Both the position numbers and the translations under genes were made by a program. DNA of 64,000 nt, from the NCBI GenBank assembly GCA_030522415.1, contig CM060107.1:21984071-22048070 (forward strand), read 5' to 3'. The notes under the pieces are model-generated. The model was not told the origin of the DNA, did no database searches, and saw only the letters and a program-made list of their open reading frames with translations. Shown here in pieces: positions 21,186 through 57,770 of this stretch. Within the stretch, counting starts at the first letter, position 1. Every line of letters begins with the position of its first letter. This DNA is from Channallabes apus (taxonomy: Eukaryota > Chordata > Actinopteri > Siluriformes > Clariidae).

Positions 21186-21587
21186 TTTTGACTCGTGAAA
21201 TCGTCGATCCATTGAAAATGTCTTTATGTAGGCACCGTGCACGCGCACTAACTCTGGGTAACCAGTAGGGGGTTGATTAAACTAAATCTTATGACATACT
21301 CTCGGTATGCGGGTTTGGGGTTAATCAACCCAGAGGTTAAGATTAACCAAATGGTAAGTTAACCAAGCTTTCTGGAACACCCCCCAGGGGGGTGTTCCAG
21401 GAAGCAGGTTATGTGACATACCCGGATAAGTTTGAGGGTAAGTTAGTGGATAACCTCAACTTCCGGTTCCAAAAACGGAGGTAACTTTCTGGGTATGTAT
21501 GTAACCATAGCAACTTACTCTCTGAAGATAACCTGCTCGGTAGCAGGTTATGTTCCAGGGTAAGTTTGTTTCAGAAGCTTAGTGAGC

Positions 21588-22900: not shown

Positions 22901-22932
22901 ATTTTTTTTAGTGGTCTGCTGTTCACTGTGGT

Positions 22933-24511: not shown

Positions 24512-24728
24512 TATAACTCGTGAAATCCGCGATCCATTGAAAATGTCTTTATGTAGGCACCGTGCACGCGCATTAACTCTGGGTAACCAGTAGAGGGTTG
24601 ATTAAACTAAATCTTATCAGGTGTTTTGGAACCGACATACTCTCGGTATGCGGGTTTGGGGTTAATCAACCCAGAGGTTAAGATTAACCAAATGGTAAGT
24701 TAACCAAGCTTTCTGGAACACCCCCCTG

Positions 24729-28227: not shown

Positions 28228-28446
28228 GAGTGTGGTGTCCTATAATTGCTGTATTTGTGTGTTTGATGTGTACACCAGGTGGTTTAATAGAACTAGATGT
28301 TTGAGTGGGTAAAAAAAAAGAAAGAGTATCCTGGTCATCACGAGTATACACTCTACCCTTGAGTTACATGCTATAATAAATTACAAAGTATAACCTTAAA
28401 TATATTTACAATAAATCAGGATCACCTCTATCATCACACAGCTAAT
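27745..28446. other. Tail of the promoter-like repeat, unique sequence and (GATA)n
   Basis: Bases 27745-27773 continue the inverted copy of the 40.8-kb sequence. A (GATA)n run lies at 28160-28227. No gene is supported in the rest. Confidence 0.6.
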
Positions 28447-29553
28447 TAAATTCAATTAAATTTTATTTGTATAGCGCTTTTAACAATTGACATTTTCTCA
28501 AAACAGCTTTACACAATCAAAAGAATTATTTAAGTTTGTATGGAATGTGAATGTGTATGAATCAAAATGGTCAGATAGTCCCTGGTGAGCAAGCCCGAGG
28601 GCGACAGTGGCAAGGAAAAACTCCCTGAGATGGTAATAGGAAGAAACCTTGAGAGGAACCACACTCAACAGGGAACCCATCCTCATTTGGGTGAAACAGA
28701 TAGCAGGAAATGATCTGCATTTATATAGTGTGTTAATGCAGGCAGGCAGTTCAGCTATAATAGTTGATGTTAATTGATGTTAAAATGGAGTCCAGTAGTT
28801 ATTGGAGACTCAGATAGACTTGTAGAAAGTTCCAGTCCTGAACTATCGAATTGTCAAGTCCTCAGAGAAACAGCTGACAACACCAGTCGAGGCCAGAACC
28901 ATCTTCTAAGTAGATAGAATCATCCCCAGACACCAGACGCATCCCAAAGAGACACACGGGGCATCCATGCGACGAGACCTCCAACCAGAAACGGGGCACC
29001 AGGATGGATCAGACAGGTCCGGAGGGCAGAGGGAGTCTGGATCACTGGCAGCTCAGGAGTGACATGTGTAGCTCGACAGAGAGAGAGAGAGAGAGAGAGA
29101 AAGAGTGAAAGGGGGAGACAGGGGGAGAGAGGAAAGAGAAAGAGGGGGAGAAAGAGAAGAAGAGGAGAGATGGCAGTTAGGTATGGTCACAGTCACATAA
29201 TCTATAATGTGAATGTATATTTACTGTAGAGTGCAGGCAGGGACTCCGGCAGGACTAACTATGACAGCATAACTAAAAGGGAGAGCCAGAAGGAAACACA
29301 AACATGAGGGCTCCCTGAGATGTAAAGCAAACAATCACCTCACCGTCAACAAACCTGAGTGATCAAATGAGAGTGAGGAAGACAGCATCTAAACATACCA
29401 GTTCATCATAATACTCTACGTCCATGAGTCCCCCAGATCTGCTCCTTTACCTATGGCAAATCTATTTATAAAAATGCTTGGCTAAATAAATAGGTTTTTA
29501 GCCTAGACTTAAACACTGAGACTGTGTCTGAGTCCTGAACACTATTTGGAAGA

Positions 29554-32356: not shown

Positions 32357-32762
32357 TGTCACGAACTAACCAGGATGACCAGAATGATGATCGCGCTATC
32401 TGTCACGAACTAACCGGGATGAACAGATAGCTTTAGCAGTTAGCCCTGTAGCGTGAATGGTAAACCCAAACGCGGATAAACACGAGCAGGCAGGATAATC
32501 ACGCGATTTGCTATAAGGACTCTCACACTCAATCAGCACAGGAAAGACACAATCTAACCCTAGTCCTATAAACACACACTCAGTCTGAAAAGATAGACAA
32601 GAAAGTGAGTACTCACATATACTGGAACGATTCCGAAAAGACATGGGCATAACTCAATGACAGAGCGATGTGCGGTGCCATCTTGTTTCCTTTTATGCTT
32701 TCAGCATTGCGACCGTCTTACTTCCGGGTCCTAGTGCCGGTCGCGGCTGAGTATGCATGACA
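32357..32762 (-). repeat. Gypsy-2 3' LTR
   Basis: 406 bp, tgtcacgaactaacc...gcatgaca. The first 44 bp recur immediately as a partial internal duplication (tgtcacgaac again at 32401). The minus-strand polypurine tract GGACGGGGGGGTACTG lies just after it (32763-32778). Confidence 0.92.
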
Positions 32763-33777
32763 GTACCCCCCCGTCCAGGACCGACTCCGGACGGTCCAGG
32801 GGTGGAGGATACCCGGTGACGGTAGTCCCTAATGAGCCCGGAGTCGAGGATGAAGCGAGCTGGAACCCAGGACCGCTCCTTGGGGCCGTAGCCCTCCCAG
32901 TCGACCAGATACTGGGTGCCCCTGCCCCGAGGGCGCGAGTCGAGGATCCATCGCACGGTGTAGGCGGGACCGCCGTCAATGATTCGGGGAGGGGAACAGG
33001 GGGGGTGGGTGTAACCATGGGTGAGGTGGTGAATGGTTTCAACTGTGAGGTGTGGAAGGCGGGGTGGATCCGGAGCGCCGCAGGCAGCTGGAGCCGGTAG
33101 GTGACTGGGTTGATCCTGAGGGTGATGCGGTATGGCCCGATGAACCTTGGTGATAATTTTTTGGATTCGGTGTGCAGGTGGAGGTTTCTGGTTGATAGCC
33201 ACACTTTGTCACCTACGTGGTACAATCGTCCCGGGGGGTGCCGGCGGCGGTGTTGGGCCACATAGTTGGCGTTGGTGCGTCGGATGGCGAGGTTGGCTTG
33301 GTGCCATAGCCGCCGGCACCGGCGAACCAACTGTTGGGCCGATGGTACGTCAACCTCCAGTTCCTGGTGGGTGAACATTGGAGGCTGGAAACCATAGCAC
33401 ACCTCAAATGGGCTCAAGTTGGTGGCTGAGGAGACATGGAGGTTATGGGATAATTCGGCCCACTTGAGGTAGCGGGCCCAGGAGCGCTGGCGGTCCGACA
33501 CAAAACATCTCAGGTAGCGCTCCAGCTGTTGGTTGGCTCGTTCCGTCTGACCGTTCGTCTGAGGGTGGTAGCCGGAAGACAAACTGCAGGACGAATCGAT
33601 CAGATGGCAGAAGGCCTTCCAGAACCGGGCGGTGAACTGGGGACCTCTGTCCGAGACGATGTCCTTTGGGAACCCATGCAATCGGACTACGTGTTCCAAG
33701 ATCAGCTCGGCTGTCTCTCTCGCTGACGGGAGTCCGGCGAGGGCCACCAGGTGCACTGCCTTGGAGAAGCGGTCCAC
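32693..33777 (-). pseudogene. Gypsy-2 integrase C-terminal half and chromodomain
   Basis: The frame from 33777 starts inside the integrase core (MDRFSKAVHL) and has D in VSDRGPQFT and E in HPQTNGQTERANQ, then the GPY/F module ([12 protein letters not shown]). The frame then shifts. From about 33060 another frame gives a chromodomain: [20 protein letters not shown] followed by [20 protein letters not shown]. Chromodomains steer chromovirus integration to marked chromatin. Confidence 0.88.
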
Positions 33778-35128
33778 AATGGTCAGGATGACGTCTTTTC
33801 CATCTGAATCTGGCAGGCCCGTGATGAAATCTACGGCAATGTGGGACCAGGGTCGACGGGGAACTGGGAGTGGTTAGAGTTCCCCTGGAGTTGGTTGGTT
33901 AATGTCCTTCGCCCTGGCGCACATTGGGCACGCCCGAACGAACTCGGTTATTTCCCTCCTCATTGAGGGCCACCAGAAAGCCCGGCCGATGAAGGTGGTG
34001 GTTCTCCGGCTTCCCTGGTGTCCTGCGACGGGTGACGAATGGCCCCACTGGAGGACCTCCGATCGGAGTCGTTCAGGGACGAAGATCCGTCCGGGCGGCA
34101 CACCTGCCGGTGCTGGGTCCCTGGTCAGTGCCTGGCGGACCCTCGTCTCCAGGTTCCACTGCAGGGGTGCGATGATGCGGGTAGGTGCAAGGACAGGCAC
34201 GGGGTCCGCCCGGGGCGTCTCTCGCTCGTGTTGCCGGGAGAGGGCGTCAGCCTTGGTGTTCTTTGACCCCGGGCGGTACGAGAGGTGGAAGTTGAATTGT
34301 TCGAAGAACAGTGCCCACCGTGCCTGTCGTGGGTTCAACTGCTTCAAATTGCGGATGGTGATCAGGTTTTGGTGGTCCGTTCAGACGATGAATGGCTCGC
34401 TGGCACCCTGGAGCCAGTGACGCCACTCCTCCAAGGCCCACTTTATGCCCAACAGTTCGCGGTCCCCCACACCGTATCGCTGCTGAGTGGGGTTAAACTT
34501 TTTGGAGTAGAAGCCACATGGGTGCAGCTTCTGGTCTGGACCTCGTTGGGAGAGAACAGCGCCGGCGCCCACCTCCGACGTGTCCACCTCCACAACGAAC
34601 GGTTGGCTGGCATCTGGATGAAGCAGGATGGGTGCGGTGGTGAACAGATGACAGAGTCGATGAAAAGCTGAGATGGCGGTAGGATCGAGTCGGAAGGAAT
34701 GGTTGGAGAGCCTGGTAAGTGCTGTGAGCGGTGCTGCAACTGTACTGTAGCCCCGGATAAAGCGACGATAAAAGTTCGCAAACCCGAGAAAGTGTTGGAG
34801 CTGGAGGTAGGGGCCAGTGACGTACAACCTCCAGCTTCTGCGGGTCCATGGCCACACCCTGGGGCGAGATGACAAAACCCAGGAACGTGGTGGAGTGCTC
34901 GTGAAAAGCACACTTTTCCAGCTTACAGTACAGCTGGTGGGCGAGCAATCTCTTAAGGACAGCTCGAACGTGTTTTGTGTGTTCAGCGGGGGTACGTGAG
35001 TAAATTAAAATGTCATCCAGATAGACAAACACCCATCGGCCTAGCATGTCCCTGAGGACATCGTTGATGAAGGCTTGGAAGGCCGAGGGTGCGTTGCAGA
35101 GACCAAATGGGATGACCAGGCTCTCATA
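33778..35128 (-). pseudogene. Gypsy-2 RT 3' half, RNase H and integrase N-terminus
   Basis: Frames 34493-35047 ([12 protein letters not shown], catalytic [21 protein letters not shown]), 34381-34911 ([46 protein letters not shown]) and 33874-34347 ([19 protein letters not shown]; integrase zinc finger with CPMCARAK) together cover RT, RNase H and the start of integrase. Frameshifts lie near 34380 and 34800, and an in-frame TAA at 33874-33876 separates the last piece from the integrase core. Confidence 0.88.
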
Positions 35129-35692
35129 TGCCTCTTTTCCACTGCATAGAACGACACGACACAGTTCAGTTCAACTCACTTAGGTTCGGCGCAGTTTGCT
35201 CTTCCACTGCAGTGTAGTAACACTTTAGCGTGGGCGGGATTACTCACGCGCGCGGCGCCGCTACTGCCGTGACGTCATCGTAAGCGCGCCACAAACACAC
35301 ACACAACAATGGAGCATATCGACAGCATGGTGTTCTTCATTCTCGGCATGTGGATGTTTTTAACAGCGAGACGAATTAGTTTGTTTCAAAAGAGGCCGAC
35401 GGTTAATACAAAAAGGTGCGTGCAATCCTTCTCTGGCTGTTTCTAAATATATCGGTTCTGTTGTGTCTCGTGTCGCAAGTTCAGTGATGCAGTAATAACG
35501 ATTTTCTCCGGCTAATCAGTGACCAGCGTGTTTACACGTCACGTTTTGGTAACGGTTTGGCGCGCTTGGAACCTCGGGCGAGGTGGTACTAAAAAAAGGA
35601 ACAGGTACTATGTACTGGTCCCAGTGGAAAACCCCCCAAAAGTGAGTAGAACTGAGCCGTGTCGTGTCGTACTATGCAGTGGAAAAGCGCCA
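35129..35692. mobile_element. MITE with long terminal inverted repeats inside Gypsy-2 RT
   Basis: A 564-bp element. Ends: tgcctcttttccactgcat (35129) and, in reverse complement, tggcgcttttccactgcat. The inverted match continues for about 48 bp with few differences. ata (35126-35128, 35693-35695) is a 3-bp target duplication; removing the element restores homology with the RT of Gypsy-3 across the junction. No transposase inside. The superfamily is open: 3-bp duplication suggests PIF/Harbinger-like, but ata is not its usual target. Confidence 0.9.
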
Positions 35693-35695
35693 ATA

Positions 35696-36728
35696 GTGTC
35701 CGGTAGGGGTGATGAAGGCTGTCTTCCACTCATCACCCTCTCTGATGCGCACCAAGTTGTAGGCGCTCCGGAGGTCCAACTTAGTGAACGTGGTGGCACC
35801 AGAGAGGGCGTCCAGGGCTGAATTGGTGAGAGGCAGAGGGTGACGATTTCGAATGGTGATCTTATTTAGCCCCCGATAGTCGACACACGGGCGAAGTTCG
35901 CCCCCTTTCTTCTTTACGAAGAAGAACCCCGCGGCAGCCGGCGAAGAGGAGGGCCTGATGGTGCCATTTCGCAGGGCGTTGGCGACATACTCCTCCATAG
36001 CCTGGGTCTCGTTGGTAGAGAGGGAGTAGAGATGGCCGCGGGGGGGGGGGGGGGCTGGAGCCTGGCTGGAGTTCAATGGCTAGGTCGTAGGGTCGGTGAG
36101 GTGGAAGGTGGCTGGCCCGGCATTTACAGAACACTTCAGCCAGGTCTCGATACGGTGGAGGAATGGCGTGGATGTCGACGTCGGGGGCCTCGGACTCCCT
36201 GGAACACGTCCCAGCCTGGGCCTGTAGGCATAAGTTGGTACAGGTCGGCCCCCATTGAAGGATCCGGTTCTGAGACCAGGAGATGAGTGGGTCGTGCTGT
36301 AAGAGCGAGGGATAGCCGAGGATGATGGGTGGAGAGGAGATGGGTGTGAGGTGAAATTGTATGGACTCCTGATGTTGGCCGAGGACGAGAGTGATGGGTA
36401 GAGTCTGCTGGGTGATGGGGCTGGATGAGAGGGGCCGCCCGTCGACTGAGGTGATTCTCATTGGCTGGGATAACGCCTCAATCTTTACCCCCAATCCTTT
36501 GGCGTACGTTGAGTCAATGAAGTTACCCGCGGCACCGGAATCGATGGCCCGTTTGTGGCCAAGGTGGAGGGTTACCTGAACCGTGAGTCGAGTAGCGGTG
36601 TGATCGGTGGTGGCGGAGAGGTGGATGGTACCCGAGGAGTCTCTCCTATCTCTCACCGGGTCTGGGCGTTTCCCGGACGGGACGGGCAGGTGGCTCGGTG
36701 GTGCGCTGCTGAGCCGCAATAGGCGCAC
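35696..36728 (-). pseudogene. Gypsy-2 protease and RT 5' half
   Basis: The frame 35862-36728 has the protease motif AIDSGAAGNFID and the linker VDIHAIPPPYRDLAEVF. It then shifts near 36040, where a G-run of about 13 lies. The frame 35672-36076 continues with [61 protein letters not shown]. The MITE then interrupts it at 35692. Confidence 0.88.
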
Positions 36729-38572
36729 AGTCCCTCGCGGTAACTTCTCTGGCGTTCCGCCACGTTCAGGGAGGCGCGCCCTAGTTGCATGGGTTCCCCG
36801 GCTCCGGTGTCAACCACGGCAGGGGGTGGAGATCCGACACGTCCAGGAAGAGCTGTGGTGACGGTGGGTGGTGGTCTTGGTGCAGTGTAGGCATAAGTGG
36901 ATGGTGGCGGCAGGGTTCGGGGTGCTGGCTTCGGGCGAGAGAGGAGGCGCTGATCGATCCGGAGGGCTAGCTGGATTAGCCCCTCCAGTGTGGCTGGGAG
37001 CTCTCGTCCGGCTAGCTCGTCTTTGATACGATTAGCCAGCCCCTCGAAGTAGGACGTCCGGAGAGCTCGTCTCCCCAGGAGGTCTGGATGGCGAGGGTCC
37101 GGAACTCGGCAGTATATTTACTCACGGACAGTCCTCCCTGCCACAGGTGGTAGAGCTTTGTGTCGGTCTCCACCTCGCCCGCGGGATGTTCAAATGTTAG
37201 CTTGAGCTGACGGGTGAATTCGTTATAGGAGTGCGCAGTGTCTGTGTCAGCGCGCAGGACTGCCGTGGCCCACTCTGCTGCCTGCCCTGATAGCAACGAG
37301 ACGAGGAGTGCAATGCGCAGCCGGTCGGTGGAGTACTTGGTGGCATTGAACTCAAACACCAGTTCCAGCGATGTTAAAAACACACTGCATTTCCCATCCG
37401 TGCCATCCCATTTATCTGGAAGAGCTAAAAAAACATCAGAAGGGGGGGGGGGTGGCGGGCGGACCGCTAGCCAGCCCACTAACCGCCGCCCGAAGGCTCG
37501 CGTTCTCCTGCCTTGGAGGTCGCGGTGTCTTGGACACTCCGGCGCAATTCAATTCAATTCAATTCAGTTTTATTTGTATAGCGCTTTTAACAATTGACAT
37601 TGTCTCAAAACAGCTTTACACAATCAAAAGAATTATTTAAGTTTGTATGGAATGTGAATGTGTATGAATCAAAATGTTCAGATAGTCCCTGGTGAGCAAG
37701 CCCGAGGGCGACAGTGGCAAGGAAAAACTCCCTGAGATGGTAATAGGAAGAAACCTTGAGAGGAACCAGACTCGACAGGGAACCCATCCTCATCTGGGTG
37801 AAACAGATAGCAGGAAATGATCTGCATTTATACAATGTTAAGTGTTAGGTTCAGCTATAATAGTTGATGTTAATTGATGTTATAATAGTTGATGTAAAAT
37901 GGAGTCCAGTAGTTATTCGAGACTCAGATAGACTTGTAGAAAGTTCCAGTCCTGAACTATCGAATTGTCAAGTCCTCAGAGAAACAGCTGACAACACCAG
38001 TCGAGGCCAGAACCATCTTCTAAGTAGATAGAATCATCCCCAGACACCAGGCACATCCTAAAGAGACACACGGGGCATCCATGCGATGAGACCTCCAACC
38101 AGAAACCGGGCACCAGGATGGACCAGACAGGTCCGGAGGGCAGAGGGAGTCTGGATCACTGGCAGCTCAGGAACCACATGTGTAGCTCGACAGAGAGAGA
38201 GAGAGAAAGAGTGAAAGGGGGAGACAGGGGGAGAGAGGAAAGAGAAAGAGGGGGAGGAAGAGAAGAGGAGGAGTGATTGCAATTAGGTATGGTCACAGTC
38301 ACAATGTCTAATGTGAATGTATATTTACTGTAGAGTGCAAGCAGGGACTCCGGCAGGACTAACTATGACAGCATAACTAAAAGGGAGAGCCAGAAGGAAA
38401 CACAAACATGAGGGGGAACTGAGATGTAAAGCAAACAATCACCTCACCGTCAACAAACCTGAGTGATCAGAGAATCGAGTTCCGCGGTTAGCGCATTAAT
38501 GAGCAAAGCATGCTGGTCAACCACATCGCGAAGGCGGGCGTAATCCGCTGTGTTTACTGCTGGCTCTGTCAT
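36680..38572 (-). pseudogene. Gypsy-2 gag, split by an L2 tail
   Basis: Start ATG 38572 directly after the priming site: MTEPAVNTADYARLRDVVDQ, coiled-coil-like. It is interrupted after about 35 codons by the L2 fragment 37545-38467. The continuation (37479-37012) is the chromovirus Gag core: LPDKWDGTDGKCSVFLTSLE, LLSGQAAEWATAVL. A frameshift near 37070 follows, and the zinc knuckle CAYCGSAAHHRATC is readable at about 36680-36725 in another frame. Confidence 0.85.
37545..38467 (-). mobile_element. L2 3'-UTR fragment inserted in Gypsy-2 gag
   Basis: Begins with four units of caatt (37545-37565), then ttttatttgtatagcgcttt, and is collinear with 28450 to about 29360 of copy A. It holds only the 3' UTR (severe 5' truncation). 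No clear target duplication is visible. Confidence 0.9.
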
Positions 38573-38573
38573 T
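38563..38573 (-). other. Gypsy-2 self-priming site candidate
   Basis: Minus-strand AATGACAGAGC, one base after the 5' LTR. It is the exact complement of GCTCTGTCATT in the same LTR (38874-38884), which lies where transcription should begin. No TGG start as expected for tRNA priming is present. Confidence 0.75.
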
Positions 38574-38574
38574 C

Positions 38575-38980
38575 TGTCACGAACTAACCGGGATGACCAG
38601 AATGATGATCGCGCTATCTGTCACGAACTAACCGGGATGAACAGATAGCTTTAGCAGTTAGCCCTGTAGCATGGATGGTAAACCCAAACGCGGATAAACA
38701 CGAGCAGGCAGGATAATCACGCGATTTGCTATAAGGACTCTCACACTCAATGAGCACAGGAAAGACACAATCTAACCCTAGTCCTATAAACACACACTCA
38801 GTCTGAAAAGATAGCCAAGAAAGTGAGTACTCACATATACTGGAACGATTCCGAAAAGACATGGGCATAACTCAATGACAGAGCGATGTGCGGCGCCATC
38901 TTGTTTCCTTTTATGCTTTCAGCTTCGCGACCGTCTTACTTTCGGGTCCTAGTGCCGGTCGCGGCTGAGTGTGCATGACA
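38575..38980 (-). repeat. Gypsy-2 5' LTR
   Basis: 406 bp, tgtcacgaactaaccggg...gtgcatgaca. It carries the TATA-like box GCATAAAAGG on the minus strand (38907-38916). Confidence 0.92.
38874..38916 (-). promoter_or_regulatory. Gypsy-2 LTR promoter and predicted transcript start
   Basis: Minus strand: CATAAAAGG (about 38907-38915), then about 31 bp later GCTCTGTCATT (38884 down to 38874), complementary to the priming site at 38563-38573. Confidence 0.65.
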
Positions 38981-41889: not shown

Positions 41890-42224
41890 TCAGTGTTTCA
41901 ATTTCAGTTTTTCAATTATTAGACCTATTGCAGAATAACAATATCTGTAAACACAAGTCTTCCTTGTAAATGTTGAGATTTGAGTCGGTGCTTCTGCAGT
42001 TTGATTAACTACTGAAACTGCAGCAACACTGAATGTATAGTTCACTCCAGCAGTCAGACCAGTGACAGTGTAAGACATGTCTGAAGTTGTAAAGTTCATA
42101 TTCACACTGCCATCAGTCCAGTTTATAAAAAAGCTGCTTCCAGATGTCGCATACCAGTTTAGTGACACAGATGAAGTGGTTTTGGCATAAACATTGAGAT
42201 AGCTGAGAGCACCAGTCACTATAA
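41890..42224 (-). CDS. Fibronectin type III-like exon (host gene or remnant)
   Basis: The minus-strand frame reads TGALSYLNVYAKTTSSVSLN, W, then FINWTDGSVNMNFT, MSYTVTGLTAGVNYTFSVAA. This is one FN3 domain: Trp in the B strand, Leu-Tyr pattern LTAGVNYTF, about 85 residues. Such repeats are typical of receptor-type tyrosine phosphatases and related fish membrane proteins. A possible acceptor (ttttatag) precedes TGALSY at about 42224. A clear GT donor at the other end (near 41955) is not seen; the frame just runs on, so it may be a decayed exon. The gag-free LTR element at 42272 inserted about 50 bp upstream of it. Confidence 0.45.
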
Positions 42225-42271
42225 AACACACAAATGCAAATGGCAAAATTGTTAATGTCTATCATTGTAAT

Positions 42272-42646
42272 TGTAACGGTTAACCCCTAGATGGCGCCAG
42301 AGCGCCATTTATATTTATGTTGTGTTTTGAGTTGTAGTTTTGTTTTTCGTTCAGTTGGACTTCAGTTCCCAGTTTGCACCTCGGTCAGGTGACGTAGAAG
42401 CTCACCTGAACCGAGGGAAGTTAATTTGATGATTAGTTTATGTTTAGTTCTTTAAATAGCCTGGCTGAACTCCAGTCAGGCGTCTAGCAACCGTTACAGA
42501 AAGTTTAGTTTGTGTTGGAGTGTTTTTGTTTTATGTTTTGTTTGGAATTCAAAAATAAAAGGACTTTGTTAACCGTCAGCTCGCCTCTGCGATCATGCCT
42601 CGCACACACGGCCGACACAGACATAGTAAGGGAAGGAAACGTGACA
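42272..42646 (+). repeat. 5' LTR of the repeat-protein element
   Basis: 375 bp. U3 contains a short palindrome (tggcgccagagcgcca, 42294-42309). A TATA-like box is at 42451, the predicted start of R at 42482, and a poly(A) signal aataaa at about 42553. U5 holds the ATG of the long ORF (42595). Confidence 0.93.
42451..42490 (+). promoter_or_regulatory. LTR promoter and predicted transcript 5' end
   Basis: tttaaata at 42451-42458 is followed 31 bp later by gtctagcaa (42482-42490). Those nine bases are exactly complementary to ttgctagac at 42649-42657, just after the LTR. The spacing supports 42482 as the start of R. Confidence 0.7.
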
Positions 42647-45600
42647 GATTGCTAGACCCAAAAAGAGGCATGGCGGAGGATCTCCTCCTAAGGAGTTACT
42701 TAGGAGGAGAGATCATCATCTCCAACGAGCTGGCGGAACTGCTGCGGGCTAGCGAGGAGCCCGGCGAAGTAGAAGTTTGGCAAGGGTGGAGTAACATTGA
42801 GCACAGCGAGCCAGTGAGCTCAGGGGAGGACAGCATGACAGCTCGAGAGAGAGTGGCAAGGCGAAGCTGGGAAGGCTGCGGACCCGTCGTCCGGCGCACA
42901 CCGCCGCGAGGTGTGGCAGCCGAGGGAGTGACGGGAGGATTCGACAGGCAGTGGGCGGAACGCAACGAGGAGTGCATTAATGACCTGCGCGAGCAGGTGC
43001 TGCAGCTCCAACTGCAGTACGTCCAGGTTCGAGAGAACCAAGCTGTAGTCCCGGAAGCGATCTCGCTCTTGAATCTGGACGATGCACTCCTCCCACGGCC
43101 ACTGCCTGAAGGAGGCGCGGACAGCACACCGGAGCTGAGCCTGGAGGACTGGACGCCGCTGCAGCACGGCGATGAGGCAGACTTCTACAGGCAGTGGGCG
43201 GAGTCCAACCAGGAGCGCATTCGTGACCTGCGCGAGCAGGTGCTGCAGCTCCAACTGCAGTTCGTCCAGGTTCGGGAGAACCAATCTGTAGCCCCGGAAG
43301 CGATCCCCCTCCCGGGTCTGGACGATGCACTCACCCCCCGACCACTGCCTGAGTCTGTCGAGGGGGAAGACGTCGCGCCGTGTCTGCAAGGAGAGGAGAG
43401 CGCTGTGCACGCTCCAACGTTGCAGTCGAGCGCCGTGCCCGCTCCAACGAGGCAGGAAAGCGCTGTGCATGCTCCAACGCTGCAGGAGAGCGCAGTGCAC
43501 GCTCCAACGCTGCAGTCGAGCGCAGTGCACGCTCCAACGCTGCAGTCGAGCGCAGTGCACGCTCCAACGCTGCAGGAAAGCGCCGTGCACGAGAGCGCCG
43601 TGCACGCTCCAACGCTGCAGGAAAGCGCCGTGCACGCTCCAACGCTACAGGAGAGCGCCGTGCACGCTCCAACGCTGCAGGGAAGCGCCGTGCACGCTCC
43701 AACGCTGCAGGAGAGCTCCGTGCACGCTCCAACGCTGCAGGAGAGCGCCGTGCACGCTCCAACGCTGCAGGAGAGCGCCGTGCACGCTCCCATGCTGCAG
43801 ACGAGCTCCGTGCACGCTCCCAGGCTGCAGGCGAGCGCCGTGCACGCTCCAACGCTGCAGGAAAGCGCCGTGCACGCTCCAACGCTGCAGTCGAGCGCAG
43901 TGCACGCTCCAACGCTGCAGGAGAGCGCCGTGCACGCCCCAACGCTGCAGGAGAGCGCCGTGCACGCTCCAGCGCTGCAGGAGAGCACCGTGCATGCTCC
44001 AACGCTGTCGAGCCCTGCACAAGCTCCAACGACCAAGGCACCTGTTCCAACGCCACCTCCCGGCTTCGAGGATAGCGAGCTAGCACGCCAACAGCCGCTG
44101 TCCCATGCACCTGTTCCTATGCCACTTCCTGGTTTCGAGGATAGCGAGCTAGCACGCCAGCAGCCGCTGTCCCATGCACCTGTTCTGCCGCCGCCTCCCG
44201 GCTTCGAGGATAGCGAGCTAGCACGCCAGCAGCCGCTGTCCCATGCACCTGTTCTGACGCCACTTCCTGGCTTCGAGGATAGCGAGCTAGCACGCCAGCA
44301 GCCGCTGTCCCATGCACCTGTTCTGCCGCCGCCTCCCGGCTTTGAGGACGACGTTGAGCCGTCGAGCACGCTGCACGCTCCAACGCCGCTGTCGAGCGCA
44401 CTGCCCACTCCAACGCCTGTGTCGAGCGCACTGCACGCTCCAACGCCGCTGTCGAGCGCACTGCACGTTCCAGAGCCGTCGTCGAGCGTCGTGCACGCTC
44501 CAGAGCCGTCGTCGAGCGTCGTGCACGCTCCAGAGCCGTCGTCGAGCGTCGTGCACGCTCCAGGGCCGTCGTCGAGCGTCGGGCACGCTCCAGGGCCTTC
44601 GGCGAGCGCAGTGCACGCTCCAACGCCGCTGTTGAGCTCTGCACAAGCCCCAACGTCGTCGTCGAGCGCAGTGCACGCTCCAACGCCGCTGTTGAGCTCT
44701 GCACAAGCTCCAACGCCGTCTCCGAGCGCAGTGTCCGCTCCCACGCCGTCTCCGAGCGCAGTGACCGCTCCCACGCCGTCTACGAGCGCAGTGACCGCTC
44801 CCACGCCGTCTACGAGCGCAGTGACCGCTCCCACGCCGGCTACGAGCGCAGTGACCGCTCCCGCGCCGTCTACGAGCGCAGTGACCGCTCCAACGCCGTC
44901 TCCGAGCGCAGTGACCGCTCCCACGCCGTCTACGAGCGCAGTGACCGCTCCCACGCCGTCTACGAGCGCAGTGACCGCTCCTACGCCGTCTACGAGCGCA
45001 GTGACCGCTCCTACGCCGTCTGCGAGCGCAGTGACCGCTCCCACGCCGTCTGCGAGCGCAGTGACCGCTCCCACGCCGTCTACGAGCGCAGTGACCGCTC
45101 CCACGCCGTCTACGAGCGCAGTGACCGCTCCCACGCCGTCTACGAGCGCAGTGACCGCTCCTACGCCGTCTACGAGCGCAGTGACCGCTCCTACGCCGTC
45201 TGCGAGCGCAGTGACCGCTCCCACGCCGTCTGCGAGCGCAGTGACCGCTCCCACGCCGTCTACGAGCGCAGTGACCGCTCCCACGCCGTCTACGAGCGCA
45301 GTGACCGCTCCCACGCCGTCTCCGAGCGCAGTGACCGCTCCCACGCCGTCTCCGAGCGCAGTGACCGCTCCCACGCCGTCTCCGAGCGCAGTGACCGCTC
45401 CCACGCCGTCTCCGAGCGCAGTGACCGCTCCCACGCCGTCTACGAGCGCAGTGACCGCTCCCACGCCTGAGTCGAGCGCAGTGACCGCCCTAACGCCTGC
45501 GGCGAGCGCAGTGACCGCTCCAACGCCTGCGTCGAGCGCAGTGACCGCTCCAACGCCTGCGTCGAGCGCTTCTCCAGCCCTGCCGCCGCCGAGCGTTTCT

Positions 45601-46359
45601 CCAGATCTGCAGCAGCAGAGCGCTTCTCAAGCTCAGCAGCAGCCGAGCGCTTCTCCAGCCCTGCCGCCGCCGAGCGTTTCTCCAGATCTGCAGCAGCAGA
45701 GCGCTTCTCCAGCTCAGCAGCAGCCGAGCACGTTTCCAGCTCAGCAGCATCCGAGCACGCTTCCAGCTCAGCAGCATCCGAGCACGCTTCCAGCTCAGCA
45801 GCATCCGAGCACGCTTCTAGCTCAGCAGCATCCGAGCACGCTTCTAGCTCTGCAGCATCCGAGCGCTTCTCCAGCTCTGCAGCATCCGAGCGCTTCTCCA
45901 GATCTGCAGCAGCAGAGCGCTTCTCCAGCTCAGCAGCATCCGAGCACGCTTCCAGCTCAGCAGCAGCCGAGCACGCTTCCAGCTCTACAGCAGCCGAGCA
46001 CTTCTCCAGCCCTGCAGCCGCCGAGCACGTCTCCAGCTCTGCAGCATCCGAGCGCTTCTCCAGATCTGCAGCACCCGAGCGCTTCTCCAGCTCAGCAGCA
46101 TCCGAGCGCTTCTCCAGCTCTGCAGCATCCGAGCGCTTCTCCAGCTCTGCAGCAGCCGAGCACGCTTCCAGCTCTGCAGCAGCCGAACACTTCTCCAGCT
46201 CTGCAGCCGCCGAGCACGCTTCCAGCCCAGCAGCCGCAGAGCATGCCTCCAGCCCCGTCACCCAGCCTCCTGGATAGGAGGCTAAAGGTAGAACATTGGG
46301 TTGGGTGTCCGGGGCCTCCGGTGATGCTCCGGGAGGAGCATTTTTTAGAGGGGGGGTAA
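42595..46359 (+). CDS. Repeat protein of the non-autonomous LTR element, function unknown
   Basis: The frame of 1,254 codons starts at ATG 42595 inside U5 (MPRTHGRHRHSKGRKRD, very basic); MAEDLLLRSYLGGE at 42670 is an alternative start. Residues about 115-250 hold two copies of a Q/L/R-rich segment (REQVLQLQLQYVQVREN), probably coiled coil. Then follow about 20 units of a 10-residue repeat (ESAVHAPTLQ), four to five units of 23 residues (PPPGFEDSELARQQPLSH), about 30 units of SAVTAPTPST, and about 24 units of 9 residues (HPSTLPAQQ). The C-terminus is unique (LKVEHWVGCPGPPVML, then REEHFLEGG), with the last codons forming the polypurine tract. No enzyme motif, signal peptide or membrane segment. 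Opposite-strand frames are also long, so openness partly follows from repeat periods divisible by three. Confidence 0.65.
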   Translation: MPRTHGRHRHSKGRKRDRLLDPKRGMAEDLLLRSYLGGEIIISNELAELLRASEEPGEVEVWQGWSNIEHSEPVSSGEDSMTARERVARRSWEGCGPVVRRTPPRGVAAEGVTGGFDRQWAERNEECINDLREQVLQLQLQYVQVRENQAVVPEAISLLNLDDALLPRPLPEGGADSTPELSLEDWTPLQHGDEADFYRQWAESNQERIRDLREQVLQLQLQFVQVRENQSVAPEAIPLPGLDDALTPRPLPESVEGEDVAPCLQGEESAVHAPTLQSSAVPAPTRQESAVHAPTLQESAVHAPTLQSSAVHAPTLQSSAVHAPTLQESAVHESAVHAPTLQESAVHAPTLQESAVHAPTLQGSAVHAPTLQESSVHAPTLQESAVHAPTLQESAVHAPMLQTSSVHAPRLQASAVHAPTLQESAVHAPTLQSSAVHAPTLQESAVHAPTLQESAVHAPALQESTVHAPTLSSPAQAPTTKAPVPTPPPGFEDSELARQQPLSHAPVPMPLPGFEDSELARQQPLSHAPVLPPPPGFEDSELARQQPLSHAPVLTPLPGFEDSELARQQPLSHAPVLPPPPGFEDDVEPSSTLHAPTPLSSALPTPTPVSSALHAPTPLSSALHVPEPSSSVVHAPEPSSSVVHAPEPSSSVVHAPGPSSSVGHAPGPSASAVHAPTPLLSSAQAPTSSSSAVHAPTPLLSSAQAPTPSPSAVSAPTPSPSAVTAPTPSTSAVTAPTPSTSAVTAPTPATSAVTAPAPSTSAVTAPTPSPSAVTAPTPSTSAVTAPTPSTSAVTAPTPSTSAVTAPTPSASAVTAPTPSASAVTAPTPSTSAVTAPTPSTSAVTAPTPSTSAVTAPTPSTSAVTAPTPSASAVTAPTPSASAVTAPTPSTSAVTAPTPSTSAVTAPTPSPSAVTAPTPSPSAVTAPTPSPSAVTAPTPSPSAVTAPTPSTSAVTAPTPESSAVTALTPAASAVTAPTPASSAVTAPTPASSASPALPPPSVSPDLQQQSASQAQQQPSASPALPPPSVSPDLQQQSASPAQQQPSTFPAQQHPSTLPAQQHPSTLPAQQHPSTLLAQQHPSTLLALQHPSASPALQHPSASPDLQQQSASPAQQHPSTLPAQQQPSTLPALQQPSTSPALQPPSTSPALQHPSASPDLQHPSASPAQQHPSASPALQHPSASPALQQPSTLPALQQPNTSPALQPPSTLPAQQPQSMPPAPSPSLLDRRLKVEHWVGCPGPPVMLREEHFLEGG
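42649..42657 (+). other. Self-priming site candidate
   Basis: ttgctagac begins two bases after the LTR end. There is no TGG as in tRNA-primed elements. Pairing with 42482-42490 at the RNA 5' end would give a self primer, as known for Tf1 and sushi-type elements. Confidence 0.75.
43399..46250. repeat. Coding minisatellite arrays (30-, 69-, 30- and 27-bp units)
   Basis: Four adjoining arrays: 30 bp (43399-44010, ctccaacgctgcag core), 69 bp (44035-44345), 30 bp (44355-45570, ctcccacgccgtctacgagc core) and 27 bp (45590-46250, cagctcagcagcatccgag core). All periods are multiples of three, so length change keeps the frame. Higher-order repetition is visible, for example 45001-45090 is nearly repeated at 45181-45270. 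Confidence 0.92.
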
Positions 46360-46734
46360 TGTAACGGTTAACCCCTAGATGGCGCCAGAGCGCCATTTAT
46401 ATTTATGTTGTGTTTTGAGTTGTAGTTTTGTTTTTCGTTCAGTTGGACTTCAGTTCCCAGTTTGCACCTCGGTCAGGTGACGTAGAAGCTCACCTGAACC
46501 GAGGGAAGTTAATTTGATGATTAGTTTATGTTTAGTTCTTTAAATAGCCTGGCTGAACTCCAGTCAGGCGTCTAGCAACCGTTACAGAAAGTTTAGTTTG
46601 TGTTGGAGTGTTTTTGTTTTATGTTTTGTTTGGAATTCAAAAATAAAAGGACTTTGTTAACCGTCAGCTCGCCTCTGCGATCATGCCTCGCACACACGGC
46701 CGACACAGACATAGTAAGGGAAGGAAACGTGACA
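46360..46734 (+). repeat. 3' LTR of the repeat-protein element
   Basis: Base-for-base the same as 42272-42646 by eye, including the MPRTHGRHRHSKGRKRD start in U5, here followed by host sequence. Confidence 0.93.
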
Positions 46735-46739
46735 GTAAT

Positions 46740-49733: not shown

Positions 49734-50079
49734 TGTCACGAACGCAGGCAGAACGATATGAATCCAAGTGCGGATACTGACTATATAGAGATGTGGGGGG
49801 CGTGGTCGGGGGCGTGAGCAAGGGTCGAATGCCGTGAGTCCGTCAGCGAAGCGTCCAAAGCAAAAACACGAGACGAGAGCCGTAGTCAAAAAGAGGAAGC
49901 GTAAGGTCAAAACCGGGAAATCAAAAGGGCAGGCGAACAATCCAAATCGGCAAGCAGAAAATCAAAAACGAGAAAAAACAAAGCGAGGTCGTAACATGAA
50001 AGCAGAGAAAAGAAAACGCGAGAGAATCGAGGTATAACACACACAATAATCCAGCGATCTGAGCAGCGCGCCGCGCATG
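49734..50079 (-). repeat. Gypsy-3 3' LTR, truncated
   Basis: Matches 54055-54400. In element orientation its first about 161 bp (U3 start) are missing. At the break gccgcgcatg joins ggcatgagatgagg of pol; a shared catg may be the microhomology used. Confidence 0.92.
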
Positions 50080-53000
50080 GGCATGAGATGAGGCGACGTA
50101 GCTGGGACACGTGGAATGTGGGATTTATTCGTCGCAACGTAGAGGGAAGTAGAAGTCTGACCGCGCAGGGGTTGACAATCCTGGTTATGGTGAAGGGGCC
50201 GATGTAACGGGGTGAGAGTTTGCGGGACAGGGTCTTAAGAGGGAGGTCTCTGGTGGAGAGCATGACTCTCTGCCCTATCCTGTACTTGGGGACCTGAGAG
50301 CGTCTACGGTCTGCTTGCTCCTTGTAAATTCTGCCTTGTCGTAGCAGCGTCCTTCTGGCTTGGGTCCAGGTCCTCCTACAGCGGCGAATGAAGGCTTGGG
50401 CAGAGGGGACGCTGACCTCCTCTTCCTGAGAGGGGAACAAGGGTGGTTGGTAGCCCAGGCAGCACTGGAAGGGGGACAGCCCAGTAGACGAAGAGACTAG
50501 GGAGTTGTGGGCGTATTCGACCCAGGGCAGGAATCTGCTCCACGAGGTGACATCCCGGTAGGTCATGCACCTCAGGGCGATCTCGAGGGCTTGATTCTTC
50601 CTCTCCGTCTGCCCATTGGATTGAGGGTGGAAACCTGATGACAGGCTTGGGGTGGCTCCAATGAGCTTACAAAATGCCTTCCAGAACTGAGAAGTGAACT
50701 GTGGGCCCCGATCAGACACAATGTCCTTGGGCAGGCCGTGGAGCATAAATACGTGATTAATCATGAGCTCTGCAGTCTCCTTGGCGGACGGAAGTTTTGG
50801 TAGGGGGATAAAGTGAGCAGCTTTAGAGAACCGATCAACCACGGTCATGATGCAGGTGTGGCCGGTGGAGGGGGGTAGACCGGTGACGAAGTCCAGGGCG
50901 ATGTTGGACCAGGGGCGATGAGGGATGGGCAGGGGTCTGAGGAGGCCAGCTGGGGCCGTGTTGACATGTTTGGATCTTATGCAGACATTGCATGCTGCAA
51001 CAAAGCGGGAGACGTCATCCTTGAGGGTGGACCACCAAAACCGCTGCTGGGCTAGTGCCAGAGTTCTGGCGGTGCCTGGGTGGCAAGCGAGCTTGGAACT
51101 GTGGGCCCACTCCAGGACCTGAGAGCGCAGAGCGAGGGGAACGAAGAGACGGTTAGGAGGCACATTGCTTGGGCTTGGTCCATGGGATAGGGCTTCCTTG
51201 ACGCTGGTTTCGATATCGAGCTCGGCCACGGCGAGGAGGCAGGGGGGCGGCAAAATAGTCTCACATGGGGCAGGGTCTTGGGTGGTCGAAAATATTCTTG
51301 AAAGCGCATCCGGCTTGGTGTTCTTAGACCCTGGTCGGTAGGAGAGGGTAAAATTGAACCTGGCAAAGAACAGGGACCACCGGGCCTGACGAGAGTTGAG
51401 CCTCTTGGCGCTCCGTAGGTACTCGAGGTTCTTGTGATCGGTCCATACCAGGAATGGGGCCTCCGTTCCCTCCAGCCAGTGTCTCCATTCCTCCAGTGCT
51501 AACTTGATGGCTAAGAGTTCACGATCTCCGATGCCGTAATTGCTCTCAGCAGGGGTTAGGCGGTGGGAGAAGAAGGAGCAGGGGTGCAGCTTATTATCTC
51601 TGTTGGATCTTTGTGAGAGGATGCCTCCTACTCCGGTGCTGGAGGCGTCGACTTCTACGATGAACTGCCGTGACGGATCTGGGATGGTGAGGATAGGGGC
51701 GGAGGTGAACCGTTTCTTCAGCTCGCTGAAGGCTTTTTCGGATTCCAAGTTCCAGCAGAATTGGGTTTTGGTAGAGGTTAGAGCTGTTAGAGGGGCGGCG
51801 ATGGAGCTGTAGCCTCGGATAAACCGACGATAAAAGTTAGCAAAGCCTAAGAACCTCTGGAGTTCATGTCGAGAAGTAGGGGTGGGCCACCTAGTGACCG
51901 CTTCGAGTTTAGCAGGTTCCATCTCGATGCCCTTGGGGCTGATGGTGAATCCGAGGAACGTGGTGGCTGTGGTGTGGAACTCGCACTTCTCAGCCTTGAT
52001 GAACAAGTTGTTCTCCAGGAGTCTCTGCAGTACCTGCCTGACATGATGTTGGTGTTCTTCTGGGTTGTGAGAAAAGATCAGGATGTCGTCGAGATAGACG
52101 AATACGAATGAGTTAAGGAAATCCCTGAGGACGTCATTGATTAAGGCTTGAAACACTCCGGGGGCATTAGTAAGTCCAAAGGGAACCACCAGATACTCAT
52201 AATGTCCAGTTGGCGTATTAAAAGCTGTTTTCCACTCATCCCCTTCCCGAATGCGAACAAGGTGATAGGCGTTGCGCAGATCTAGCTTAGTGAAGGTGCT
52301 GGCCCCCTGAAGGAGTTCGAAGGCAGTAGACATTAGAGGAAGGGGGTATCGGTTCTTAATGGTGATGTTGTTAAGGCCCCTATAATCAATGCACGGACGA
52401 AGGGAACCATCTTTCTTACCTACGAAGAAGAATCCCGCCCCTGCCGGAGAGGAAGAGGGGCGGATGATTCCTGCGGCCAGCGATTCCGTGATGTACTGGT
52501 CCATGGCTTGGCGTTCTTTGGGCGACAGTGAGTAAAGACGGCCCTTGGGGGGGGAGGTGCCTGGGAGGAGGTCAATGGCGCAGTCATATGGTCGGTGGGG
52601 GGGAAGAGAGACTGCACGTGATTTACTGAACATAGTCCTGAGGTCATGGTATTCTGGGGGAACACGGGTGAGGTCCGATGGCTCCTTTGTGGGGACTGGG
52701 TCGAGGCAGGGCGTAGTGACGGCGCGTAAACATGACGTGGAGCATGATGGACTCCAGGCTACGATCGTGTTCCTGACCCAATCAATGTGCGGATTGTGTT
52801 GGGTTAACCAGGGGAGGCCTAGGACGACCGTGGCATGTGACCCCTCCATGATGAACAGCGACGTTTGTTCTGAGTGATTGCCGGACACCTTTAGGCCAAT
52901 GAGAGGGGTTCTGTGGGTGATGGGTGGGAGTGGACTCCCGTCGAGGGCCTGGACTTTGAGGTGGTTCTCCAAGGGCAGCGCAGGAATACCCAGGGTCTCG

Positions 53001-54013
53001 GCTGAAGCCGCATTCAGCAGGTTACGATCCGAACCCGAGTCGACCAGTGCCTGCACTAGGTGGGTCTGTCGCTCATGGATGAGGAAGATGGGAAGCAGAT
53101 GACGTTGGTCTGGGAGCCTTCTTGGAGTCTCGCCCTCTAGTGCTCCCAGCTGAACTAGAGGGCGCCCCCCTTTTACTGGACAGTTCTTCAGCAGGTGTCC
53201 TGATTTCCCACAGTAGAAGCAGGCCCCCTCCACCCGCCGGCGGTGACGCTCCTCTGGGGTGATGCGGGTTCTGCCCAGTTGCATGGGATCCTCCTGGGGT
53301 TCAACTCGTGGAGGTGGGGGTCGCGGTAGTGCCCTGGGAGGAGAAAATCGGGCTGACCTACGAAGACGGAGACGGGCATCTACTCGACCAGCCAGGTCCA
53401 CAAGCTCTTGGAGCGACGAGGGAAGCTCTCGCGAGATTAGCTCATCTTGGAGCTTCTCTGTCAGACCCTCCAAAAAGACGTCGCATAACGCTCGGTTATT
53501 CCAACCACTGGGGAGGGCCAGGGTCTGGAACTCAATGGCATATTCATAGGCCGAGCGCGAGCCCTGGCGAAGATTCAGCAGTTTTCGGCCCGCCTCCCTG
53601 CCATGGCATGAGCGGTCAAACACCCTCTTCATCTCTCTGGCGAAGTCTCCGTAATTGGAACAGCAGGGGTCGTGTGCATCTCAAAGCGTGGTGCTCCATT
53701 CACGGGCGCGTCCTGACAGGAGTGTGATGACGTAAGCCACCTTAGATCGTTCGGTGGAAAAGGCGGAGGCTTGGAGCTCGAAGATCAGGGAACACTGAGA
53801 TAAGAAGGAGCGACAGGTGCCTGGATCTCCCTCGTAGGTGGGAGGAGCGGGGAGGCGTGGTTCCTGTGGCGCATGTGAGCTTGCTCCTTGCGGTAGGGAG
53901 AGTTGGAGTCTCTGAAGCTGAGACGTGACGTCGGCGAGAGACTGCTTGGTGCTGAGCAGTTCCTGTTGGTGAGTCCCGAGCAGGGCACCTTGACTTTCCA
54001 ATGCCGCTCTCAT
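49907..54013 (-). pseudogene. Gypsy-3 Gag-Pol, one nonsense codon, chromodomain lost
   Basis: Single-frame Gag-Pol of chromovirus type. The first ATG after the LTR is 54013 (DHMRAALES). A TGA at about 53681-53683 follows the Gag residues RAREWSTTL; the same frame then continues 1,241 codons. In that part: zinc knuckle [14 protein letters not shown] (138-151), protease VDSGSDRN (197-204), RT with YLDD (513-516), RNase H VDAS (661-664), integrase zinc finger (about 844-885) and triad D914, D974, E1010 (DD35E), then the GPY/F module [10 protein letters not shown]. All catalytic residues are kept. After HVSQLRRL the frame runs into LTR sequence because of the 3' deletion, so the chromodomain expected in this group is gone. 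Confidence 0.93.
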
Positions 54014-54042
54014 ATGGTCAGAAGCCGCTGGATCAATAGCTG

Positions 54043-54053
54043 GCTGGATTATT
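54043..54053 (-). other. Gypsy-3 self-priming site candidate
   Basis: Minus-strand AATAATCCAGC, one base after the 5' LTR, is the exact complement of GCTGGATTATT at 54376-54366 in the LTR. Confidence 0.78.
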
Positions 54054-54054
54054 C

Positions 54055-54561
54055 TGTCACGAACGCAGGCAGAACGATATGAATCCAAGTGCGGATACTG
54101 ACTATATAGAGATGTGGGGGGCGTGGTCGGGGGCGTGAGCAAGGGTCGAATGCCGTGAGTCCGTCAGCGAAGTGTCCAAAGCAAAAACACGAGACGAGAG
54201 CCGTAGTCAAAAAGAGGAAGCGTAAGGTCAAAACCGGGAAATCAAAAGGGCAGGCGAACAATCCAAATCGGCAAGCAGAAAATCAAAAACGAGAAAAAAC
54301 AAAGCGAGGTCGTAACATGAAAGCAGAGAAAAGAAAACGCGAGAGAATCGAGGTATAACACACACAATAATCCAGCGATCTGAGCAGCGCGCCGCGCATG
54401 CTTAAATCGCTGGAGTAATCAGTCATGGAATGAGAAACAGCTGAGCAGACGGGGCGGAAACGGGGGCGTGAGAGCGCACGTGACGGCTAGACAAAAACAT
54501 GAGCGCGTGGGGGAGTGACAGCGTGGGAAAAAAAACGGCCGACAGACCGTGACTCGTGACA
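54055..54561 (-). repeat. Gypsy-3 5' LTR
   Basis: 507 bp, tgtcacgaacgcagg...gactcgtgaca. It contains the promoter-like block at 54366-54408. Confidence 0.93.
54366..54408 (-). promoter_or_regulatory. Gypsy-3 LTR promoter and predicted transcript start
   Basis: Minus strand: GATTTAAG (54408-54401), and about 30 bp later GCTGGATTATT (54376-54366), complementary to the priming site 54043-54053. Confidence 0.65.
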
Positions 54562-55107: not shown

Positions 55108-57770
55108 TTAATTGCAATAGTGAGGACTTCATGAACTTTTTTAATAATAAAATTGTAAATATCAGACATAAAATTGAGGGATTGAAACCGAACAATGTAA
55201 TTGATACAGATGTTAACCTAGCCATGTCATATCGGAACCTAGAATACTTTACTCCCCTTGAAGAGAATGAACTAATTTCACTCTTCTCTTCTGCAAATTC
55301 ATCAACCTGTATATTAGATCCTATACCGACACATTTTCTTAAACAGATAGTACCAGTAATAACAGAACCGCTGTTGAGAATAATTAATTCCTCACTCAGC
55401 ATTGGTTATGCTCCAAAATCTTTTAAATTAGCAGTTATCAAACCAATAATTAAGAAACCTGACCTCGACCCCTGACAGCTGTCCAATTACAGGCCAATAT
55501 CGAACCTCCCCTTCGTCTCTAAGATTCTGGAAACGATAGTAGCGGAGCAGCTATGCTCATATCTACATAGAAATGGCATACATGAACTGTATCAGTCAGG
55601 ATTTAGGCCTCATCACAGCACAGAAACAGCACTCGTTAAAGTAGTAAATGACCTCCTATTGGCCTCTGATCAGGGTTGTGTAACTATGCTTGTATTACTC
55701 GACCTCAGTGCAGCTTTTGACACCATTGATCATGCTATTCTTCTTCACAGATTAGAAAAAGTAGTAGGAATTAAGGGTACAGCCCTCTCCTGGCTCAGAT
55801 CCTATTTGACCGATCGTTATCAGTATGTAGACTTAAATGGTGATTATTCTGCATGTTCTCTAGTGGAGTTTGGCGTTCCGCAGGGTTCAGTTTTAGGCCC
55901 ACTACTTTTTTCCCTTTACATGCTTCCTCTGGGCAACATAATCCGTAAGCATGGTATTAGTTTTCATTGTTATGCTGACGACACACAGTTGTATGTCTCA
56001 GCAAAACCTGATGAGAAAAACCAGCTAACTAAAGTTGAGCAATGTGTGCAGGACATAAGAAATTGGATGCTAATTAACTTCCTTCTGCTTAATCCGGATA
56101 AGACAGAAGCAGTCATAGGACCGCATACAGCTAGGAGTAAAATCTTAGATTACACCGTAACTTTTGATGGCCTTTCTGTTCCATCAAGTGCAACAGTAAA
56201 AGACCTCGGCGTGATTATAGATTCTAGTCTTTCATTTGAAGCTCATGTAAATAATATCACCAGGATAGCATCCTTTCACCTCAGAAATATTGCCAAGATA
56301 AGAAATATATTGTCGCTAAACGATGCAGAAAAACTAGTTCATGCTTTTATCACTTCTAGGTTGGACTATTGTAATGGCTTACTGTCTGGTTGTTCAGCTA
56401 GGTGCATAAACAAACTTCAGCTAGTCCAGAATGCAGCAGCGAGAGTCCTCACTAGAACCAGAAGATATGAGCACATCACCCCTATCCTATCTTCACTGCA
56501 TTGGCTCCCTGTGAAATTTCGCATTGATTTTAAAATACTACTCTTGACATATAAAGCATTAAATGGTCTCGCGCCGCAGTATCTGAGTGAACTGCTAGTG
56601 TCTTACGATCCGCCACGCCTACTTCGATCAAAGAATGCAGGCAGCAGGATGTCAGTACCGCGTATTATGAAAACTACAGCTGGGGCCAGAGATTTTTCTT
56701 ACAAAGCCCCAAAATTATGGACTACTCTTCCAAATAGTGTTCGGGACTCAGACACAGTCTCTTTGTTTAAGTCTAGGCTAAAAACCTATTTATTTAGCCA
56801 AGCATTTTTATAAATAGATTTGCCTTAGGTAAAGGAGCAGATCTGGGGGACTCATGGACGTAGAGTATTACGGTGAACTGGTATGTTTAGATGCTGTCTT
56901 CCTCACTCTCATTTGATCACTCAGGTTTGTTGACAGTGAGGTGATTGTTGCTGTCATAGTTAGTCCTGCCGGAGTCCCTGCCTGCACTCTACAGTAAATA
57001 TACATTCACATTATACATTATGTGACTGTGACCATACCTAACTGCCATCTCTCCTCTTCTTCTCTTTCTCCCCCTCTTTCTCTTTCCTCTCTCCCCCTGT
57101 CTCCCCCTTTCACTCTTTCACTCTTTCTCTCTCTCTGTCGAGCTACACATGTCATTCCTGAGCTGCCAGTGATCCAGACTCCCTCTGCCCTCCGGACCTG
57201 TCTGACTCATCCTGGTGCCCCGTTTCTGGTTGGAGATCTCGTCACATGGATGCCCCGTGTGTCTCTTTGGGATGCATCTGGTGTCTGGGGATGATTCTCT
57301 CTACTTAGAAGACGGTTCTGGCCTCGACTGGTGTTAGCAGCTGTTTCTCTGAAGACTTGAGAATTCGATAGTTCAGGACTGGAACTTTCTACAAGTCTAT
57401 CTGAGTCTCCAATAACTGCCTGGACTCCATTTTAACATCAATTAACATCAACTATTATAGCTGAACTGCCTGCCATCTAACACACTGTATAAATGCAGAT
57501 AATTTCTTGCTATCTGTTTCACCCAGATGAGGATGGGTTCCCTGTTGAGTCTGGTTCCTCTGAAGGATTCTTACTATTACCATCTCAGGGAGTTTTTCCT
57601 TGCCACTGTCGCCCTCAGGCTTGCTCACCAGGGACTATCTGACCATTTTGATTCATACACATTCACATTCCATACAAACTTAAATAATTCTTTTGATTGT
57701 GTAAAGCTGTTTTGAGACAATGTCAATTCTTAAAAGCGCTATACAAATAAAATTGAATTTAATTGAAAAT
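55108..57770 (+). mobile_element. L2-type LINE (copy B), 5'-truncated
   Basis: Collinear with copy A from about gcaatagtgaggacttcatg (55115) to the tail gcgctatacaaataaaattg (57738-57757). It holds the RT and the full 3' UTR with CT-rich stretch at 57053-57140. Endonuclease is absent. Confidence 0.9.
55134..56813 (+). pseudogene. L2-type RT (copy B), one nonsense codon
   Basis: The frame runs from NFFNNKIVNIRHKIEGLKPN to [20 protein letters not shown] and a normal stop at 56813. The only break is TGA at 55473-55475 after KKPDLDP, where copy A has a TGT codon. RT motifs: [52 protein letters not shown], catalytic YADD, and [18 protein letters not shown] complete RT core, but no endonuclease. 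Confidence 0.88.

Follow-up and report, generated by a model that had tools for sequence, protein, structure and literature searches.

A gag-less LTR retrotransposon of Channallabes apus with a putative self-primer and a long repeat-protein frame

Non-autonomous LTR elements are usually regarded as passive RNA parasites. The element at positions 42272-46734 of a 64,000-nucleotide window from Channallabes apus (contig CM060107.1), the window being the whole stretch of DNA analysed here, raises the question of how a copy without detectable gag or pol could have been mobilized and of what the long protein frame in its interior might do.

Structure of the element

The target site duplication GTAAT was found at either flank of the element (42267-42271 on the 5' side and 46735-46739 on the 3' side, without strand), and all other features described for the element are on the plus strand. 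Its LTRs (42272-42646 and 46360-46734) are each 375 bp long and run from TGTAACGG to CGTGACA, and a pairwise comparison found 375/375 bases to be identical, so the identical LTRs and the perfect duplication given in the preliminary description were both confirmed. With 0 differences at 375 sites, the LTR divergence is below ~0.8% (95% bound, rule of three), and the identity of the LTRs therefore indicates a recent insertion. A third copy of the 375-bp LTR was not found in the window by blastn (E up to 1e-3). Matching TG..CA-ended LTRs, a target duplication, a primer binding site (PBS) and a polypurine tract (PPT) are all present, as is general for LTR retrotransposons.

Within the 5' LTR, a TATA-like TTTAAA lies at LTR position 180 (42451-42456) and a poly(A) signal AATAAA at LTR position 283 (42554-42559). 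The ATG of the main ORF (1,254 codons, 42595-46359) is located 41 nt past the start of AATAAA, still within the LTR and presumably in U5, and the frame fills the element as had been described. The earlier claim that the ORF ends exactly in the PPT holds insofar as the frame reaches that tract (AGAGGGGGGG, 46347-46356, with six T directly before it), while the stop codon TAA, at 46357-46359, is placed between the tract and the 3' LTR. An upstream ORF of 40 codons (42533-42655) is out of frame and overlaps the main start; its start context is weak by our reading, and ribosomes would reach the main ORF only by leaky scanning or would have to use a different start.

The priming site and the neighbouring elements

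A tRNA-type primer binding site would show TGG near the LTR. The first bases past the 5' LTR are GATTGCTAGACCC, and TGG is absent from the first 22 nt, the criterion from which alone tRNA priming was judged; the number of tRNA genes in the window is 0. Bases 3-11 past the LTR, i.e., the primer binding site TTGCTAGAC at 42649-42657, which begins after 2 nt, are the reverse complement of LTR bases 211-219, the putative self-primer GTCTAGCAA at 42482-42490. This word lies 31 nt downstream of the TATA-like TTTAAA, where the transcript start is expected, and would thus form the 5' end of the RNA and the start of R. While the PPT and a priming site had been correctly placed before, the complementarity between the priming site and the predicted 5' end of the RNA of the element itself is a new point, and the site looks like that of a self-primer.

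To be matched by 9 nt at any place of the LTR is not rare in itself, as it occurred in 2.8% of shuffles and 2.3% of the 22-mers of the window. The joint geometry at 9 nt, on the other hand, is rare, being true of three elements and of 49 of 30,936 other points in the window. In both the MFE and the centroid folds of the predicted RNA 5' end, the 5' end pairs with the PBS, and compared with shuffles the fold of this region showed no extra stability (z -0.43; 66 of 200 shuffles were as good).

The two other elements that share the geometry, denoted as e50 and e32, are sushi-type by our assignment, which is based on their domains and on their predicted priming. The first, at ~49734-54561 on the minus strand, contains RVT_1, rve and SH3_Tf2-1, is flanked by the duplication AGCTT and has an 11-nt self-primer. 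Its late gag and pol share a 1,257-codon frame, an early gag frame stops just before, and its 3' LTR seems to lack the beginning, considering that the shared repeat is 346 bp and the 5' LTR 507 bp. The second, e32, at ~32357-38980 on the minus strand, contains rve, SH3_Tf2-1 and a chromodomain and likewise has an 11-nt self-primer; its LTRs are 97.5% alike, its duplication is GGGAG, and GGGGGGGTAC stands ahead of its 3' LTR. The stretch 37551-38469 of e32 recurs at 28444-29365 and 56949-57767.

The self-primers of both neighbours are 30-31 nt past TATA-like motifs. Compared with these, the self-primer of the gag-less element is shorter (9 nt vs 11 nt) and its PBS offset is 3 instead of 2. The LTR end CGTGACA and the 5-bp duplications are common to all three elements, and the layout GGGGGGGTA-N-TG before the 3' LTR, a G7 polypurine tract adjoining TG, is common to e32 and the gag-less element. 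Self-priming is described as the feature common to the Tf1/sushi group (PMC10085805). Since the self-primer/PBS layout of the gag-less element is that of the Tf1/sushi group (sushi-ichi; here e32 and e50), the element is most likely non-autonomous and a parasite on members of this group, and its cis machinery is most likely to be read as sushi-type. It differs from these elements in that gag, protease, RT, integrase and a chromodomain were not detected, in that one unrelated repeat-protein ORF is found instead, and in that its LTR starts with TGTAACG, whereas those of e32 and e50 start with TGTC.

The LTR start speaks against the sushi assignment. The LTR end motifs given in PMC3601003 (Table 3) are TGTYANR ... 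CNTNACA for sushi and TGTNANR for rGmr1. The 3' end of our LTR fits CNTNACA, while its 5' end departs from the sushi motif at one base, base 4, and fits that of rGmr1. The helper may accordingly be Gmr1-like. Within the window, no autonomous element carrying the LTR of the gag-less element was seen.

Taken all together, we consider the element, with a probability of roughly 0.6, to be a recently inserted non-autonomous Ty3/Gypsy element of Tf1/sushi (self-priming chromovirus) type that encodes an ORF protein of its own family. Its RNA would start at ~42482, and the first nine bases would fold back onto the PBS just past the 5' LTR, where the cleaved self-primer could start reverse transcription; the G-rich polypurine tract would then prime the second strand. 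An autonomous sushi-type helper may supply Gag and Pol in trans, and the integrase of this helper would join the LTR ends to the chromosome.

A further LTR element of the window, e2 (2487-6997, minus strand), is gypsy-like and has identical 177-bp LTRs (TGTAGA...TCTACA), an open 853-codon pol frame and an upstream frame of 460 codons that gave no Pfam match. A self-primer match of at least 6 nt was not found in e2, whose PBS begins with TGG.

The open reading frame and its predicted protein

The ORF is built as had been reported, with a segment in two copies followed by four arrays. The 177-bp coiled-coil-like segment occurs at 42933-43109 and 43176-43352 with 86% likeness, and both copies carry a 6-of-6 hydrophobic heptad, IxDLREQVLQLQLQ(Y/F)VQV, with heptad cores at 42976-43038 and 43219-43281. 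This pattern alone is no proof, as it was also obtained in 238 of 5,000 shuffles of the N-terminal part. The arrays have units of 30 nt (array 1, ESAVHAPTLQ-like, 43394-44007), 69 nt (array 2, 44038-44348), 30 nt (array 3, PTPSTSAVTA-like, 44360-45569) and 27 nt (array 4, SASPALQQP-like, 45563-46215). The ~940 residues of Pro/Ala/Ser/Thr/Gln repeats are probably disordered. Residues 1-261 are rich in charge (30 K+R and 48 D+E) with a basic stretch in the first 24 residues, and the arrays are poor in basic residues, with 2, 5, 0 and 0 K+R and 15, 14, 4 and 4 D+E, respectively.

The N-terminal fifth of the ORF looks coding. When its 262 codons were shuffled by mononucleotides, the frame was open in 4 of 20,000 trials; its G+C contents by codon position are 73/44/68%, against a flat 69/68/65% in the arrays. 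The earlier view, that the LTR element is young and non-autonomous and that its gene looks genuine, is supported. Open arrays as coding evidence were rejected as weak, considering that all array periods are divisible by three and that the 80 distinct unit variants would be expected to give 1.8 stops (P of none 0.16). When all 203 unit differences were counted, 5.4 stops were expected and P of none was 0.005, although copied units are not independent. Large frames of up to 813 codons in other phases or antisense were taken as by-products of the same array periods.

The strongest rival to our reading starts from this point. The element could be a self-priming parasite whose protein is inert, the open frame serving to hold ribosomes on an RNA whose 3' UTR is short and which would thereby escape decay, and tandem arrays with periods divisible by three would be a cheap way of staying open. 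The dN/dS values between the internal duplicate segments are 1.04 (58 codons) and 1.02 (64 codons), and those of the other five frames over the same stretches are 0.62-1.14. The duplicate segments thus give no sign of purifying selection, and paralogous copies may diverge freely. Frame 0 has no stop before its end, compared with 52, 20, 16, 12 and 24 stops in the other five frames across the ORF, and its stop codon is positioned directly ahead of the 3' LTR, all of which would be expected if only openness is retained. The pN/pS ratios among array units are mixed, with 0.50 in 1b, 0.66 in 3b, 1.71 in array 4 and 0.31 in array 2. Against an inert protein stand the codon-position bias of the N-terminal part and its recognizable relative in Clarias described below, with the heptad kept, neither of which is decisive. 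We regard this explanation as possible but about half as probable as our own.

When the N-terminal part was compared with 5.77 billion proteins, a single match at E up to 10 was obtained among the candidates scored, denoted as P0001 (E 2.5e-10); the protein searches scored only the 7,996-7,997 candidates sharing most words with the query. P0001 is a 326-aa protein model of the catfish Clarias gariepinus annotated as "high affinity immunoglobulin epsilon receptor subunit beta-like". Its residues 195-318 align with ORF residues 35-163 (42697-43083) with 57 identities in 151 columns, of which 49 columns are gaps, and the identity in aligned residues is 56%. The relative reads in the frame of the ORF, retains the 6-of-6 heptad and has a single coiled-coil segment in place of the two of the ORF. 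None of the gaps breaks the frame, but exon choice by a gene predictor can produce such a result by itself. A search with the two-row alignment including P0001 again returned P0001 as the sole match among the candidates scored. The host part of P0001 is a separate MS4A-type segment (PF04103), and the ORF-related stretch of ~130 residues is its tail, which means that a catfish gene has taken up a retroelement exon or that the gene model is faulty. With a relative of its N-terminal part present in a catfish protein model, the gene of the element is not a one-off.

The divergent relative and an ORF that begins inside the LTR, upstream of the position expected for gag, would also fit an accessory gene of an autonomous parent, from which the present copy arose by internal deletion of gag-pol. 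However, among 7,996 candidates scored, none in the range of 690-2,195 residues had a related N-terminal part at E up to 10, and the frame holds no Pfam trace of gag or pol, so we think such an origin improbable.

The ORF protein had also been proposed to replace Gag, and a Gag too diverged for recognition has a precedent in zebrafish, where that of BHIKHARI escaped notice before structure prediction. The non-autonomous Bik-1 has one 617-aa ORF assigned by structure prediction to a Gag with a coiled coil and a capsid domain, and is similar to our element in its N-terminal coiled coil and single ORF (PMC10996621). In our case, Pfam found 0 families at E up to 1 on the whole 1,254-codon ORF, and the five sub-threshold matches of the N-terminal 262 residues (best E 0.032) include no retroelement family. 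The interior therefore has no gag, protease, RT, RNase H or integrase detectable by Pfam, in accordance with the preliminary description, whereas the same library found them in e50 and Gag-type domains in both e32 and e50. Neither a capsid domain nor a zinc knuckle was detected by Pfam, and the first 261 residues contain 2 Cys. The N-terminal part did not significantly match the Gag frame of either neighbour (E 0.26 and 0.90), nor any Protein Data Bank sequence at E up to 10. AlphaFold2 models of the N-terminal part alone and together with P0001 were too weak to speak for or against a capsid fold, with mean pLDDT of 42 and 39 and helices predicted at low confidence, and the non-repeat residues number only ~260. 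Replacement of Gag is unsupported by the sequence matches, and we give a strongly diverged Gag a very low probability.

A captured host gene or gene fragment, likewise suggested before as a guess, would fit the unusual composition but seems least likely of all, since no host homologue of the N-terminal part appeared among the protein candidates scored and the sole relative, although annotated within a host gene, is only the tail of one gene model beside its separate MS4A-type segment. Viral contigs gave no match to two words of the LTR and six peptide patterns of the ORF, and the 27 stretches of bacterial and archaeal genome contigs that matched a pattern included 0 relatives.

Returning to the self-priming parasite with a protein of its own family, the predicted product begins with a basic stretch, followed by a short coiled coil in two copies and by ~940 repeat residues. 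Its basic first 24 residues, its coiled coil and its long arms, which are probably disordered, are more in keeping with a factor associated with RNA or particles than with a capsid, and we infer that the protein would act as an accessory factor beside the Gag of the helper rather than replacing it. A more far-reaching and tentative idea, for which the odds are rather low, is a lineage of self-priming sushi-type fish parasites that has existed for long enough to show 56% identity of aligned residues between two hosts and that has its own non-Gag gene, whose basic, coiled-coil, repeat-armed protein would bind its own RNA and enter or capture helper particles. In this case the element would be a satellite retroelement that carries a protein devoted to hijacking.

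Comparison with known non-autonomous elements

TRIM and Helenus/Ajax-type elements are also non-autonomous LTR elements; they are small and without a long protein ORF. The nearest published parallel that we found is BHIKHARI of zebrafish (PMC10996621, with PMC9341512 cited beside it). BHIKHARI-1 and BHIKHARI-2 are endogenous retroviruses that resemble our element in being recent, non-autonomous LTR elements of a fish which lack pol and have a single long ORF, and BHIKHARI-2 (crestin) is also reported to encode Gag (PMC10996621). The gag-less element differs from these in having no detected capsid, four repeat arrays and a sushi-type priming layout. Among the literature matches listed, which mostly do not cover subscription journals, none described a sushi-type element whose ORF encodes a repeat protein other than Gag.

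A non-autonomous element that retains a large non-Gag gene with a catfish relative would make it testable whether proteins that exploit the helper evolve in satellites of retrotransposons, as happens in some satellites of viruses. Self-primed parasites may be recognizable from sequence alone when a self-primer ~30 nt past a TATA box is sought and not a tRNA site.

Elsewhere in the window, three stretches of 0.8-1.4 kb within 18125-24726 each occur twice with ~84% identity at a distance of ~3.3 kb, which represents a local duplication around 18.1-21.4 and 21.4-24.7 kb. The gag-less element itself lies beside a fibronectin type III exon (frame 41890-42246, minus strand; PF00041, E 5.2e-09), ~48 nt upstream of what we read as a likely 3' splice site (AG at 42220-42219, minus strand), and is antisense to this gene.
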